Positions 2,105 to 6,952 of a stretch of DNA of 64,000 nucleotides are shown here, one piece after another. Made by a program: the position numbers and the translations under genes. The notes below the pieces were generated by a model. The model was not told where the DNA came from. It saw only the letters and a program-made list of their open reading frames with translations, and searched no databases. The stretch lies in NCBI GenBank assembly GCA_002254845.1, contig NKPT01000003.1:62001-126000 (forward strand). The letters run 5' to 3'. How positions within the stretch are numbered: position 1 is the first letter of the stretch; every line of letters begins with the position of its first letter. This stretch comes from Chloracidobacterium sp. CP2_5A (lineage in GTDB: Bacteria > Acidobacteriota > Blastocatellia > Chloracidobacteriales > Chloracidobacteriaceae).

Positions 2105-3148
2105 TCAAGCGCGACTAGGGTCATAGCCGATGACCCCAACCGAAACGCGATAGATTTCGTGGTTGGAAGCGAGAATCGCCGCTCCCTTGCCGTCAAACGC
2201 CAGCCCGACGAGGCGCGTTCCGGCAATAAACAGCTCGGCGTCCCGCCCATCCGGCGTGATTTTGACCACGCCCCGCAAGCCGTCGAGGCTTGCGCAGACA
2301 TAGGCATTGCCCGCCTGATCAAAAGCCAGTCCCTGCGGGCGGCCCAGGCCGACATGCCACCGCTCAACCTTGCCGGTCGGCGTCACGCGATAGACCGCCT
2401 CGCGGGTGCCAGCGGTCGTTGGCGCGGTGACGTAGAGGTTGCCGTCGGGCGAAAAGGCCAGATGGTAAGCCGCCAAGCTGGCTTCAAGCCGCGCATGGGG
2501 CGTGACATCGCCCAGCGGCGTCACCCGATAGATGACGCCCTGCCGGTCGCCCACAAAGAGGTTGCCCGCTCGGTCAATGGCCAGCCCAGTGGCGATCCCC
2601 AGGTTCTCGGCAAAGGGCACCACTTCGCGGAATGGGGAAATGCGATACAGAATGCCGTCGTGGCGGCTTGTGATGTAAAGCGTCCCGTCGCGGTCAAAGG
2701 CCAGGCCGGTCGGGTTCATAATGTTGTCGAGAAAGGGCGTCGCTTTGCCGTCCGCGCCAATCCGCCAGACCGAGACCTCGACTTTTTTGCCGCGCGCCCC
2801 GGAGATGGTCGTGAAGATCGCGTCGGTTTCGGGATCGTAGGCTGGATTGGCGACAGGATGAAGATTCTCCGCCAGGCGCTTGGCGATGCAAAACGGCGCG
2901 CGCGCGCTAGCCTTGCCGGACGACACAAGCTGCACATCCGTCGGTCGGTCGCGCTCCGTCGCGTCATCGGGGACGGTGACGAGCACCCGCTCCGGCGAGG
3001 CGCTCACAATGCGCCCCGGCGTCTCGCCAAACAATACCTCGCAGGTTGCATAGTCCGAAGTGTCAAACCCTTGGCAGTCAATAACGATCAGGCTGCCGGG
3101 CGCGCCCGCCTGCGGTCGGATACGAAGAATTTCAGACATGCGCGGCAT
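2105..3148 (-). CDS. IPT/TIG plus NHL-repeat (SMP-30-like) beta-propeller protein
   Basis: The 347-residue protein begins with about 85 residues resembling an IPT/TIG immunoglobulin-like fold (GAPGSLIVIDCQGF, then VLVTVPDDATERDRPTDVQLVSSG). It continues with repeated propeller blades of the form NPTGLAFDRDGTLYITS, IATGLAIDRAGNLFVGD, YHLAFSPDGNLYVTA and PQGLAFDQAGNAYVC. Such NHL/SMP-30-like propellers bind ligands or other proteins or act as lactonases; nothing here fixes a catalytic role. No signal peptide is evident, so a cytoplasmic location is likely. A second ATG three codons downstream could also serve as start. It lies 27 bp upstream of the M50 protease gene. Confidence 0.7.
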   Translation of the reverse strand: MPRMSEILRIRPQAGAPGSLIVIDCQGFDTSDYATCEVLFGETPGRIVSASPERVLVTVPDDATERDRPTDVQLVSSGKASARAPFCIAKRLAENLHPVANPAYDPETDAIFTTISGARGKKVEVSVWRIGADGKATPFLDNIMNPTGLAFDRDGTLYITSRHDGILYRISPFREVVPFAENLGIATGLAIDRAGNLFVGDRQGVIYRVTPLGDVTPHARLEASLAAYHLAFSPDGNLYVTAPTTAGTREAVYRVTPTGKVERWHVGLGRPQGLAFDQAGNAYVCASLDGLRGVVKITPDGRDAELFIAGTRLVGLAFDGKGAAILASNHEIYRVSVGVIGYDPSRA

Positions 3149-3199: not shown

Positions 3200-3784
3200 T
3201 TATGAAGGCGAACGCTTCTCATTCGCCACTGGAAGCGCCGGAAGCCGCTCCAGCTCTTTGCGCGCCTCGCGGACCAAGTCGCTTTGGGGGAAACGCTCAA
3301 CCAGTTCTGAAAAGTACCGCCGAGCTTCGGCGTCGCTGGCCGTCGCCTCTTCGGACTTGCGCTGCGCCGCCTCGCTCTGATTCCGTTTCAGCAGTCGCTT
3401 CGCCTCGTCTTCAAGCAGTCGGCGCTGACCGAGGTGATATCTGCCCAGCAGGAAAAGAATTCGGTCAAAGCGCGTAAACTGCGGGTAAACCTCATAGATT
3501 TCCATCAGCCGATTGATGGAAGCCCGAAAGTTTCTTTGGCGAGCGTAGAATTCCGCGACTTCAATGTTCTTCCGCGCGCGCTTTTCCAAGAGCGGATCGC
3601 GCGTTCCCAGCTCGCGCGGATCCTCGGTCTCATCCCGCTCGTCCAGGTCGGGAGCGGAATTGGGCTTTCGCTCGACTTGAGGGCGGGGCGCCGAACCGGC
3701 GGATGACCAAGGCGGAGACGCGTCCGCGGGCGCCGGGGCGAATAACCAAAGCCAACTGCATAGAAGGAAACAGGCGCTCGACAT
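3200..3784 (-). CDS. Secreted TPR protein, BamD-like
   Basis: The 194-residue protein has an N-terminal hydrophobic signal segment (about residues 3-22) ending near ADAS. A charged proline-rich linker follows, then helical repeats typical of outer-membrane assembly lipoprotein BamD/YfiO (EVAEFYARQRNFRASINRLM, then YFSELVERFPQSDLVREARKEL). The usual lipobox cysteine is not evident; the only nearby cysteines sit inside the hydrophobic core. It is shorter than full BamD (about 240 residues), so a BamD-like periplasmic helper is as likely as true BamD. It stands 51 bp upstream of the NHL gene and may be cotranscribed with it. Confidence 0.6.
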   Translation of the reverse strand: MSSACFLLCSWLWLFAPAPADASPPWSSAGSAPRPQVERKPNSAPDLDERDETEDPRELGTRDPLLEKRARKNIEVAEFYARQRNFRASINRLMEIYEVYPQFTRFDRILFLLGRYHLGQRRLLEDEAKRLLKRNQSEAAQRKSEEATASDAEARRYFSELVERFPQSDLVREARKELERLPALPVANEKRSPS

Positions 3785-4029: not shown

Positions 4030-5037
4030 CTAGCCCTCTAACGCCATCATTTCCGCGGGCGCAGGCGGCAAGGCGACAGTGAAGCGCGTGCCCTGTCCCA
4101 CGCGGCTCTCGACGTAAATCGCGCCGCCATGGGCCTCGGTAATGCGCTTGGCGATGGCGAGACCCAGCCCGACGCCGAGATTTTTCTTTTTGGAAGACTG
4201 CACCTGACGATATGGGTCAAAAATGTGCGGAAGGTCTTCTTCAGGAATGCCCTCGCCGCTATCCTCAACCTGGATGACAACCGATGTCTGCTGCGGGTTT
4301 TCAGGATCGCTTTGCGCCTGACACCGCAGCGCGATCGCGCCGCCAGCCGGCGTGAACTTGATGGCGTTTGACGTCAGATTCGTCAGCACGCGCCGGAGCT
4401 TTGACCAATCGCCAAGCACCGGCGGCACGCGGTCGCAATCCAGGGTGACTTGAATTTGCTTCGCATGCGCCGCCGCTCTCACCTCTTCAACGAGTTCAGC
4501 CAAACAGACAGGCAGCTCCAGCCGCCGACTTTCCAGCGTGATTTCTTGGCTCTCCGACCGGGCGACATCCAGCATCTCGTTGATGAGCGCAAGCATCGTC
4601 TCAGTGCTATGACTGGCCGCCGTCACCAGTTGGGCGTAGGCGCCGGCGAGCACGCCGGGGTCCTCGGCGAGGAGTTCCAGCGTGGCCTTGACGACGCTCA
4701 GTGGCGATTTTAAATCGTGAACCAGCATGGCCGTGAAAGCGGCCTTGACGCGATCCAGCTCCCGTAGACGGTCATTTGCATTCCGCAGCTCGGCGTTGCG
4801 CGTATCGAGTTGCGCTTGCGTCCGAATGAGCCGGCTTTGAATAGCGTCCCCAGACCCGGTAATCTTGATAGCCTGGCGGAGTAGCGTCTCGTATTTCTTG
4901 AGCAGCCTCGCGTAGTGAGCTTGCCACTCTTGGGCTGAGAAGTCGCCGCGCTGAGCGATTTCCCGAGCGACACTCACTAGCGCCCGCTCATCCGCAAAAA
5001 GCTCCAGCGCATTGGCATGGTTTGAGTCTTTTATCAT
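4030..5037 (-). CDS. Sensor histidine kinase with SiaD-like N-terminal stalk
   Basis: The 335-residue soluble kinase has an H-box HDLKSPLSVV (His near residue 112), N-box NLTSNAIKFTPAGG, G1 box DSGEGIPEEDLPHIF and G2 GVGLGLAIAKRI, so it should be active. No membrane segments are seen. Its first ~96 residues form a predicted helical/coiled-coil module that aligns without gaps to the N-terminus of the diguanylate cyclase encoded two genes upstream. It is the last gene of the siaC-siaD-siaB-kinase operon, 49 bp after siaB. By inference it may read the same SiaC partner as the cyclase. No dedicated response regulator is encoded nearby. Confidence 0.9.
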   Translation of the reverse strand: MIKDSNHANALELFADERALVSVAREIAQRGDFSAQEWQAHYARLLKKYETLLRQAIKITGSGDAIQSRLIRTQAQLDTRNAELRNANDRLRELDRVKAAFTAMLVHDLKSPLSVVKATLELLAEDPGVLAGAYAQLVTAASHSTETMLALINEMLDVARSESQEITLESRRLELPVCLAELVEEVRAAAHAKQIQVTLDCDRVPPVLGDWSKLRRVLTNLTSNAIKFTPAGGAIALRCQAQSDPENPQQTSVVIQVEDSGEGIPEEDLPHIFDPYRQVQSSKKKNLGVGLGLAIAKRITEAHGGAIYVESRVGQGTRFTVALPPAPAEMMALEG

Positions 5038-5086
5038 GGCGGATCGAAAGCCTTAGCGAGAGACAGGCGCTCGGTCAGCGGCTTGA

Positions 5087-5656
5087 TCAGGACGGAAGCG
5101 TCTTGGCAATCCGCGCCGTTAGCACGAAGAAGGCTCGCCCATCGACAATTGGGCGGATTTCATAATCCAGAGGGAAATCCGCCTTGCGCGCAATATCTAT
5201 CAATCCCAACCCCGCGCCCTTGCTTCCCGCCAGGGACTGGCCGGCTTTGAGCCGCTCATCGTAATACTGCTTGAGCTGATCAGCATCCAAGCCATGAATG
5301 CGCTCGCACTGCTCGCGTAAATAAACCATCTGATCAGCAGTCACGACATTGCCGGCGGATACGGAGTAGTCATCCGCCGATTCCGAGACCACAACCACGC
5401 CAACGCCGACCGGATGCGCCGCGCCGTTGCCGCCAAAGGGGATAGCTTCAGTTTCCGCCGAGTAATGAAGGATGTTTTGGGTCATCTCAATGAAAACGGC
5501 GAAGACCCTTTTCACTTTGCGGTCAAAGACCGACTTGTTTTTGAGCAGCGTGCCAAGCTCGACCAGGACATCTTGAGAAATAGCGCCCTTGAAAGCCAGC
5601 CAAATCTTGCGCTGGCTCATGTCCTGATAAAGCCGAAATAGGTCTTCTGCCATCAT
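5087..5656 (-). CDS. siaB: SiaB-family (DUF6272) protein kinase
   Basis: SiaB-type proteins are GHKL-fold kinases that phosphorylate the SiaC partner in the Pseudomonas SiaABCD network. The 189-residue product shows an N-box-like FIEMTQNILHYS (about 55-66) and a glycine-rich lid GSKGAGLGLIDIARKA near residue 145, and it lacks an H-box domain. A GGAGG ribosome binding site at 5661-5665 precedes two consecutive ATG codons. It lies 37 bp downstream of the diguanylate cyclase and 49 bp upstream of the histidine kinase. The symbol is given by family resemblance and operon context. Confidence 0.8.
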   Translation of the reverse strand: MMAEDLFRLYQDMSQRKIWLAFKGAISQDVLVELGTLLKNKSVFDRKVKRVFAVFIEMTQNILHYSAETEAIPFGGNGAAHPVGVGVVVVSESADDYSVSAGNVVTADQMVYLREQCERIHGLDADQLKQYYDERLKAGQSLAGSKGAGLGLIDIARKADFPLDYEIRPIVDGRAFFVLTARIAKTLPS

Positions 5657-5693
5657 TGCGCCTCCAGGATTAACGCCAAACAGCTCCCCTTAG

Positions 5694-6515
5694 TTATTTG
5701 GCAGAAGAGATGGTCGCGAGCGACACTCGATTGCGTCCCGCTTCTTTCGCGGCATAAAGCGCGTTGTCCGCCGCCGCGATGAGATCGCCAACGCGATGTC
5801 GCTCCAGGGGGACTGCCGTCGCAGCGCCAATGCTCACGGTGAGGACGCCGTATGGCGAAGCTTGATGCGGAATGCCCAAATTAGCAATTGTCATGCGGAG
5901 GTCCTCGGCAAAGGTCATCAGCCAGTCCGATTGAGCTTCTGGCAAAATGACGGCAAACTCCTCGCCGCCGTAGCGAGCGACGAGATCGCCAGCCCGCCGA
6001 ATGCTTGTCATCAGCGCCGCCCCCACCTTCCGGAGGCACGCATCCCCGTGCTGGTGCCCAGCTAAGTCGTTAAGCCGCTTGAAATGGTCAACATCCAGCA
6101 TCAGCAGCGAAAGCGGCGACTGCTTGCGCAGGGCGCGGCGCCATTCCTGGTCAAGATACTCATTAAAGCGCCGTCGGTTGGCGACCCCTGTCAGAGCGTC
6201 CGAATAGGACAGCTGATGAAGCGCCTGGTTGGCTTCCTCCAGACGGGACTGCGCCAGCTCAAGCTCCGCGTTACGTCGCTCAAGCTCTTCCTGAGCTTTC
6301 AGCAGCTTGTTCTGAAACATGTCGCTCACATGCGTGAGCTTGATCAACTGGCGGATAGCGTGACGATATTTCTGGGCCAAAAACCGATAGCTTTCGCGTA
6401 GCTTGTCCGGCGTCAGGGCCAGGTTGTCGGCAACTTGGGCTGCCTCAGCCGCAATAGCTTCCTCTTCAGCGTAAATCGCTTCCGCATTGCGCTTGATGGT
6501 CGCTTCAGTTGCCAC
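5694..6515 (-). CDS. siaD: SiaD-like diguanylate cyclase (GGDEF)
   Basis: The 273-residue protein has an N-terminal helical stalk (about 18-97, ending in a coiled coil) and a GGDEF domain that makes cyclic di-GMP from two GTP. The active site reads GGEEF and is preceded, five residues earlier, by RAGD, an intact inhibitory I-site (RxxD). In the Pseudomonas Sia system the SiaD stalk binds unphosphorylated SiaC, which activates the cyclase. The gene follows siaC by 62 bp, which fits that partnership. No sensory or membrane domain is present, so regulation by SiaC is the natural reading. Confidence 0.85.
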   Translation of the reverse strand: MATEATIKRNAEAIYAEEEAIAAEAAQVADNLALTPDKLRESYRFLAQKYRHAIRQLIKLTHVSDMFQNKLLKAQEELERRNAELELAQSRLEEANQALHQLSYSDALTGVANRRRFNEYLDQEWRRALRKQSPLSLLMLDVDHFKRLNDLAGHQHGDACLRKVGAALMTSIRRAGDLVARYGGEEFAVILPEAQSDWLMTFAEDLRMTIANLGIPHQASPYGVLTVSIGAATAVPLERHRVGDLIAAADNALYAAKEAGRNRVSLATISSAK

Positions 6516-6577
6516 GAGCTTGTGTCAGAATCGCGCGCGGGCGGGACAAATCCAGCCCGCCGCGGCTTAGGAAACTA

Positions 6578-6952
6578 TCAATGCTTCACAAATTGAAAAG
6601 TCAGGCTCAGATCTTCCGCGAACTCCTCTCCGCTTTCCCGAATGTCTTCGTCATCTTCACGGTAGTGCCAGTGTAAGCTCACCTGTCGCCCATTGCGATT
6701 GGCTTCCTCAAGCTTTTCCAAAATGTTGAGAATGCACTTTGAAGAACTGGTGTTGAAATACGACAGCTTGAAGTGGAATGTAATCGGCTGCGTCGTGCGC
6801 TGAATAAAGTCATCCAGCCACTTGAAAACCGGCTGGTAAAACTGGAGCGAATGCTCTGGGTAGGAATCCCCCGCAATTTCAAGAACGCCATTCGCCGCGT
6901 CAAAATGAACGGCGGGCGTCACCTTGGTGGCCTCAAATACCAGATTATTCAT
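6578..6952 (-). CDS. siaC: SiaC-family regulator (DUF1987)
   Basis: The 124-residue protein matches the SiaC/DUF1987 family: EATKVTPAVHFDAANGVLEI at the start, then SYPE, and YFNTSSSKCILNILEKLEE in the middle. Residue 68 is a threonine within NTSSSK, the same number as the phosphorylated Thr68 known from Pseudomonas SiaC. In that system SiaB phosphorylates and SiaA (a PP2C phosphatase) dephosphorylates SiaC, and the unphosphorylated form activates the cyclase. It is the first gene of this minus-strand operon. No SiaA phosphatase is found in the window. Confidence 0.82.
   Translation of the reverse strand: MNNLVFEATKVTPAVHFDAANGVLEIAGDSYPEHSLQFYQPVFKWLDDFIQRTTQPITFHFKLSYFNTSSSKCILNILEKLEEANRNGRQVSLHWHYREDDEDIRESGEEFAEDLSLTFQFVKH

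Follow-up and report, generated by a model that had tools for sequence, protein, structure and literature searches.

A predicted SiaC-docking stalk shared by a diguanylate cyclase and a histidine kinase in a Chloracidobacterium operon

SiaC has so far been described as the dedicated activator of one Pseudomonas diguanylate cyclase, SiaD, and an operon of Chloracidobacterium sp. CP2_5A raises the question of whether a SiaC-family protein might serve two enzymes, a cyclase and a histidine kinase (HK). The operon occupies positions 4030-6952 on the minus strand of a 64,000-nucleotide stretch of contig NKPT01000003.1 (the window). Domain scans confirm that all four genes are real and lie on that strand in the order given by an earlier reading of this DNA (the original prediction): siaC, diguanylate cyclase, siaB and HK, with intergenic gaps of 62, 37 and 49 bp in that order. 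We hypothesize, with a probability of roughly three in four, that the operon encodes a two-output partner switch built on SiaC, the HK being the second output. The computed support consists of homology between the cyclase and HK stalks, a match of the stalk to the docking motif of SiaD, co-occurrence with SiaC, covariation at the interface and conservation of phase between docking motif and active site. The features involved are these:

6578..6952, minus strand: siaC, SiaC-family regulatory phosphoprotein, 124 amino acids (PF09345, 155.8 bits against a cut-off of 24.5, 4.5e-46)
6749..6751, minus strand: codon of SiaC Thr68, phosphorylation site by homology (ungapped alignment with P. aeruginosa SiaC T68)
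5694..6515, minus strand: diguanylate cyclase with predicted N-terminal SiaC-docking stalk, 273 amino acids (GGDEF, 172 bits, 1e-50)
6261..6488, minus strand: stalk module of the cyclase, residues 10-85 (profile A4)
6297-6341, minus strand: predicted docking motif of the cyclase, K59..D65..Q68..K73 (contact positions)
5087..5656, minus strand: siaB-like SiaC kinase, 189 amino acids (NF038262, 171.2 bits; DUF6272, 4.6e-39)
4030..5037, minus strand: cytosolic HK with predicted N-terminal SiaC-docking stalk, 335 amino acids (HisKA, 4.9e-13; HATPase_c, 5.3e-31)
4786..4998, minus strand: stalk module of the HK, residues 14-84 (match to profiles built without HKs, 73.8 bits)
4822-4866, minus strand: predicted docking motif of the HK, K58..D64..Q67..R69..R72
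4717..4719, minus strand: HK phosphoacceptor His107 (H-box VHDLKSP; docking Asp64 lies 43 residues earlier, 1 mod 7)

As had been claimed, SiaC Thr68 is intact (N67-T68-S69) and the cyclase has an I-site, an RxxD (RAGD) upstream of GGEEF. Besides these three residues, SiaC carries E79, D103, E110 and D114 at positions that contact SiaD. The siaB-like gene is the sole match in its genome, and its product has the N-box residues Glu57/Asn61 and GAGLGL. The H, N and G boxes of the HK are intact, with H107, N220/N224, D259 and GLGL invariant among relatives.

The HK and cyclase stalks are homologous. Their ungapped alignment (cyclase residues 18-97, HK residues 17-96) contains the 27 identities counted in the original prediction, over 80 columns rather than the 77 given there, and none of 20,000 heptad-preserving shuffles attains that number (mean 10.6, maximum 22). 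BLASTP gave E=8e-10 (44% over 52 amino acids). The window HK scored 73.8, 63.2, 89.3 and 49.3 bits with profiles built from non-HK, GGDEF-only, Ser/Thr-kinase-only and nucleotide-cyclase-only stalks, respectively, and 52 bits with a Spirochaetota-dominated set, where 10,000 heptad-preserving shuffles gave at most 26-28 bits. A profile comparison, named in advance as the analysis on which the shared stalk could fail, instead aligned HK with GGDEF stalks at a probability of 99.7 (hhalign, E=3e-25) and HK with Ser/Thr-kinase stalks at 99.9. Generic coiled-coil similarity was rejected on the basis of the heptad-preserving shuffles and of only 2 profile matches in 922 genomes that lack full-length SiaC and are rich in ordinary HKs and cyclases.

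No Pfam family covers the stalk in domain scans of the proteins that carry it. The crystal structure of SiaC with SiaD shows Thr68 of SiaC wedged between the two helices of the stalk and bonded to S82 and Q86 of SiaD; K77, D83, R84 and D91 provide further contacts (PMC8457831). The top match of a stalk profile built without SiaD (A3) among 177,635 PDB sequences was SiaD itself, solved with SiaC (7e6g, E=4.7e-5), in an alignment that spans both crystallographic SiaC-binding motifs, at a score of 26.7 bits that is within reach of heptad-preserving stalk shuffles. The weakest stalk matches (G410, L118 and L119) fall in the same range, and these assignments are therefore supported by the crystal structure or by siaC adjacency rather than by score. 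SiaD K77, D83 and Q86 correspond to K58, D64 and Q67 in the HK and to K59, D65 and Q68 in the cyclase; at the S82 position the cyclase has Ser (S64), and the HK and the Ser/Thr kinase have Gly. The presence of this motif agrees with the earlier proposal that the shared stalk is the SiaC-binding region of SiaD; the stalk is thus predicted to carry a SiaC-docking site through which the HK would bind SiaC, and an unnamed N-terminal region would thereby be given a function. Because the stalk has one motif where SiaD has two, we predict two SiaC molecules per effector dimer, not four. In the AlphaFold model of the HK (pLDDT 81) the chain begins with two short helices, a hairpin like that of Pseudomonas SiaD, and an unbroken helix (residues 35-124) then links the stalk to the DHp domain. 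Foldseek matched this model mainly in the catalytic half and not the stalk, with DivL, HK853 and ZraS as top matches. Three cyclases elsewhere (L042, L046 and L048) have two docking motifs with a Cys-rich segment between them (F.PIC..CK.IR.D.G.W....Y...H....FSH..CPECA), a spacing unlike the closely spaced tandem motifs of SiaD.

Stalk and SiaC also travel together. We surveyed 969 genomes, comprising 396 Acidobacteriota, 198 Spirochaetota and 375 Bacteroidota (in the GTDB sense, Chlorobia included), and found SiaC in 39 of the 41 that contain a stalk. The two occur in an identical set of 15 Acidobacteriota genomes; full-length SiaC, stalk and both occur in 13, 11 and 10 Spirochaetota and in 19, 15 and 14 Bacteroidota genomes. 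The corresponding hypergeometric P values (2e-27, 2e-13 and 2e-20) overstate the association because genomes are not independent, but the pattern nonetheless repeats in three phyla. Since the stalk profile is mostly Acidobacteriota, with one sequence from each other phylum, the Spirochaetota and Bacteroidota surveys are nearly independent of it. Most SiaC genes in stalk-containing genomes adjoin a stalk gene.

The predicted interface covaries in charge. A salt bridge joins SiaC R103 to SiaD D91 in Pseudomonas (PMC8457831), and in the window SiaC D103 stands opposite R72 of the HK and K73 of the cyclase, a charge swap. Across 36 non-redundant adjacent pairs, SiaC position 103 and stalk position 91 combine as D-K/R in 18, as R-D/E in 3 and with like charge in 1; among the 793 column pairs in which charge varies, 103-88 comes first and 103-91 fourth. 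A permutation test of the 103/91 pairing gave P=1.5e-4, which supports the interface without proving it because the sample has phylogenetic structure.

The distance from docking motif to active site changes only in whole heptads. It is 22, 29, 43 or 50 residues from the docking Asp to the HK His (1 mod 7 in 16 of 16 kinases) and 20, 27, 34, 41 or 55 to the DxLTG of GGDEF enzymes (6 mod 7 in 13 of 13), with 41 in the window cyclase and, read from the PDB alignment, 20 in SiaD, the same phase as other diguanylate cyclases. The distance in Ser/Thr kinases is 53 or 60. Bacteroidota loci fetched afterwards follow the rule (43 and 50 in HKs, 27 in diguanylate cyclases), and cyclases in such loci lie at 67, 81 and 88, all 4 mod 7; measured from the anchor chosen, two nucleotide cyclases (L014 and L085) did not agree in phase. 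Other coiled-coil effectors are also known to show heptad spacing, and the phase therefore shows functional coupling between stalk and active site, not control by SiaC.

We propose that SiaB would phosphorylate SiaC at Thr68 and so put it out of action, and that a PP2C phosphatase, probably encoded elsewhere, would restore it. Without the phosphate, SiaC would push the Thr68 end of its helix 2 into the gap between the paired stalk helices of a dimeric effector, at the docking motif K-hydrophobic-x-x-x-(S/G)-D-x-x-Q. The signal would then reach each active site through a continuous coiled coil that differs in length between effectors by multiples of seven residues only. Since the cyclase and HK share the docking stalk, one SiaC pool would set both cyclic di-GMP synthesis and kinase autophosphorylation. 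The earlier suggestion that SiaC may regulate both enzymes draws support from stalk homology, motif and co-occurrence, while binding to the kinase, the direction of the effect and the identities of the phosphatase and of the kinase target are what we infer.

Several points weigh against the HK as a second output. SiaC binding is known experimentally for the SiaD stalk only, and the HK has a single motif and places a Gly at the S82 position, one of the two hydrogen-bond partners of Thr68. Co-occurrence, which the original prediction had suggested checking, falls short of invariable: a stalk lacks a detected SiaC in G410 (L105, a weak 27-bit match with HD-GYP) and in the draft genome G882 (L174, a stalk-bearing nucleotide cyclase). 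Conversely, SiaC occurs with no detectable stalk in some Bacteroidota (5 of the 19, and 6 genomes in another search), which implies that SiaC has other partners too; in two Spirochaetota of this kind (G428 and G542) a hybrid kinase with a weak motif adjoins siaC. The tree of the stalks, built on 77 columns, is poorly resolved. Many coiled-coil effectors have linkers spaced in heptads, so that phase on its own is not proof of SiaC control, and the phylogenetic structure of the covariation sample belongs on the same side.

One alternative is that the stalk is a dimerisation coiled coil acquired by domain shuffling, with SiaC binding the cyclase and the HK merely residing in the operon. Coiled coils do precede many HK and GGDEF domains, and heptad spacing is general in such linkers, yet the exact SiaC contacts K, D and Q are the conserved positions in HK-only alignments, and the near absence of stalks from the 922 genomes without full-length SiaC is not what a generic dimerisation element would give. 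In addition, siaB-siaC-HK operons exist without any cyclase (L010 and L155), and the charge swap extends to HK pairs (R103-D91 in L118, D103-R72 in the window). We regard this alternative as unlikely.

A further alternative concerns a second SiaC. The genome of CP2_5A has just two SiaC genes, and its detectable stalk proteins number three. The second siaC, on another contig, is directly followed by the third stalk protein (Pkinase, 9e-48):

L152:8683-9873, contig C195 of the same genome: stalk-bearing Ser/Thr kinase directly behind the second siaC

The HK stalk might thus read this second SiaC, leaving the SiaC of the operon dedicated to the cyclase. Both SiaCs keep T68 and D103, a single SiaB serves the whole genome, and the HK stalk is nearer to that of the Ser/Thr kinase than to that of the cyclase; however, related genomes keep the HK in one operon with the first SiaC, and the contact residues, positions 75 and 107 apart, hardly separate the two SiaCs. 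This arrangement strikes us as improbable. The idea that the HK acts upstream or sideways, as a SiaC sink or through stalk sensing that tunes cyclase activation, recalls the free-standing Bacteroidota stalks of 85-101 amino acids (L176, L177, L179 and L208), which look like sinks or adaptors, and the lack of a response regulator next to the window HK, but it is the most doubtful of these alternatives given catalytic boxes that are intact and conserved and a phase-locked docking Asp-to-His distance that a mere sink would not need. No recognisable receiver-domain gene lies beside the operon in the window or in L151, as assessed by inspection of the open reading frames rather than by domain scans of all neighbouring genes.

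The sharing of a stalk between HK and cyclase that the original prediction singled out is real, but it is not special to this pair. The domains found behind the stalk comprise GGDEF, HK, hybrid HK with receiver, Ser/Thr kinase, class III nucleotide cyclase (some with GAF, some without) and PP2C/SpoIIE, with one LytS-type kinase as well, so that no fewer than five types of signalling enzyme, spread over three phyla, carry it. A tree of 69 stalks requires 23 changes of output domain, although with few columns its resolution is low. A stalk-bearing Ser/Thr kinase follows siaC also in L153, L149, L150 and L090, and the next gene encodes an FHA-GAF-PP2C protein in G051 and G063 and a repeat-rich 740-amino-acid protein in Chloracidobacterium. 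Because the stalk is found on so many enzyme kinds and almost only with SiaC, SiaC looks like a general plug-in controller and not a switch reserved for cyclic di-GMP. We lean toward the broader view that SiaC is a soluble, phosphorylation-gated STAS-fold hub across phyla, which would clamp a transferable stalk and control any enzyme fused to it, whether a cyclic di-GMP or cAMP/cGMP-type cyclase, an HK, a hybrid or Ser/Thr kinase or a PP2C phosphatase; free-standing stalks would act as competitors. The docking site would then be a portable module, passed in the course of evolution among most classes of bacterial signalling enzyme, and in Chloracidobacterium a single SiaB may govern three second-messenger and phosphorylation outputs together. 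This view predicts which Acidobacteriota, Spirochaetota and Bacteroidota kinases and cyclases answer to Ser/Thr phosphorylation, and it makes the stalk a defined, phase-locked coiled-coil input that insertions and charge swaps can test.

Some loci depart from the usual arrangement. The free-standing Bacteroidota stalk proteins adjoin siaC genes that encode Ser at residue 68, and may be competitors or adaptors for SiaC. Stalk-bearing PP2C/SpoIIE-like phosphatases occur in Spirochaetota (L158:5352-6389) and Bacteroidota (L178); the row in L158 is siaA-like, siaB, siaC and stalk-PP2C, and SiaC may therefore control a second phosphatase there. In L180 (G762) a short stalk adjoining siaC is followed by apparent membrane helices, and in L095 (G402:C16:52642-52821) a stalk beside siaC that resembles the Ser/Thr-kinase stalk is cut short after 116 amino acids, as a broken gene or an assembly error.

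The earlier statement that SiaA is missing stands at the operon, which has no adjoining SiaA PP2C either in the window or in G096, a near-complete genome of two contigs. It holds only locally, since other parts of the CP2_5A genome encode more than 10 SpoIIE/PP2C proteins whose catalytic regions are SiaA-like. None scores above the SiaA cut-off, and with so many of them the assignment of one PP2C to the operon failed. The order siaB, siaC, stalk-Ser/Thr kinase and FHA-GAF-PP2C in G051 and G063 suggests the FHA-GAF-PP2C protein as the phosphatase type, and in the Spirochaetota genome G577 siaB, siaC and stalk-PP2C come after a SiaA-like PP2C that has a Cache-type sensor region.

The operon proteins are members of the SiaB and SiaC families, not equivalogs of the Pseudomonas proteins: SiaC reached 124 bits against a cut-off of 150 (NF038265), SiaB 171 against 85 with the family model (NF038262) and 121 against 225 with the Pseudomonas equivalog model (NF038264), and the cyclase 171 against 290 with the SiaD equivalog model. 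The system resembles SiaABCD of P. aeruginosa (PMC8457831, PMC7647112) in its SiaB-family kinase, its Thr68 SiaC, a cyclase stalk with a SiaC-binding motif and the same heptad phase from motif to GGDEF (20 in SiaD, 41 here), and differs in that SiaA is not adjacent, each stalk has a single docking motif instead of two, the HK also bears a stalk and a second SiaC is paired with a Ser/Thr kinase. The STAS/PP2C/kinase switches HsbA-HsbD and BgrV-BgrR likewise use a phosphorylatable STAS-fold protein that binds and controls an enzyme (PMC8457831), but their effector is one cyclase, whereas here a transferable stalk would fit one switch protein to several enzyme classes. Light-regulated cyclases also pass a signal along a coiled coil with length in heptad steps (PMC9587094); their input is a fused photosensor, and here it would be a protein bound on the coil. 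DUF1987 proteins have been suggested to commonly modulate adjacent proteins (PMC8457831). The literature searched, which did not include subscription papers such as the original 2020 study of the network, reports SiaC control for SiaD only, and no HK, Ser/Thr kinase or nucleotide cyclase under SiaC.

The gene order siaC, cyclase, siaB and HK recurs in G096, L007 and L008, and siaC, cyclase and HK keep the spacing of the window in G123 and G165. The same order and spacing in related Chloracidobacterium/Blastocatellia genomes therefore mark a conserved gene group, in which the window HK shares 65-81% identity with four orthologues. Promoter and terminator scans found nothing above chance. The window SiaC is 90% identical to one on an 'uncultured Chloracidobacterium' contig. 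Downstream on the minus strand lie genes for a small helical-repeat protein (3200-3784), a beta-propeller-like protein (2105-3148), a site-2-protease-like protein (1367-2077), ScpA (547-1332) and ScpB (17-673); these five genes stand in the same order in L151, and the operon therefore sits in a conserved neighbourhood.

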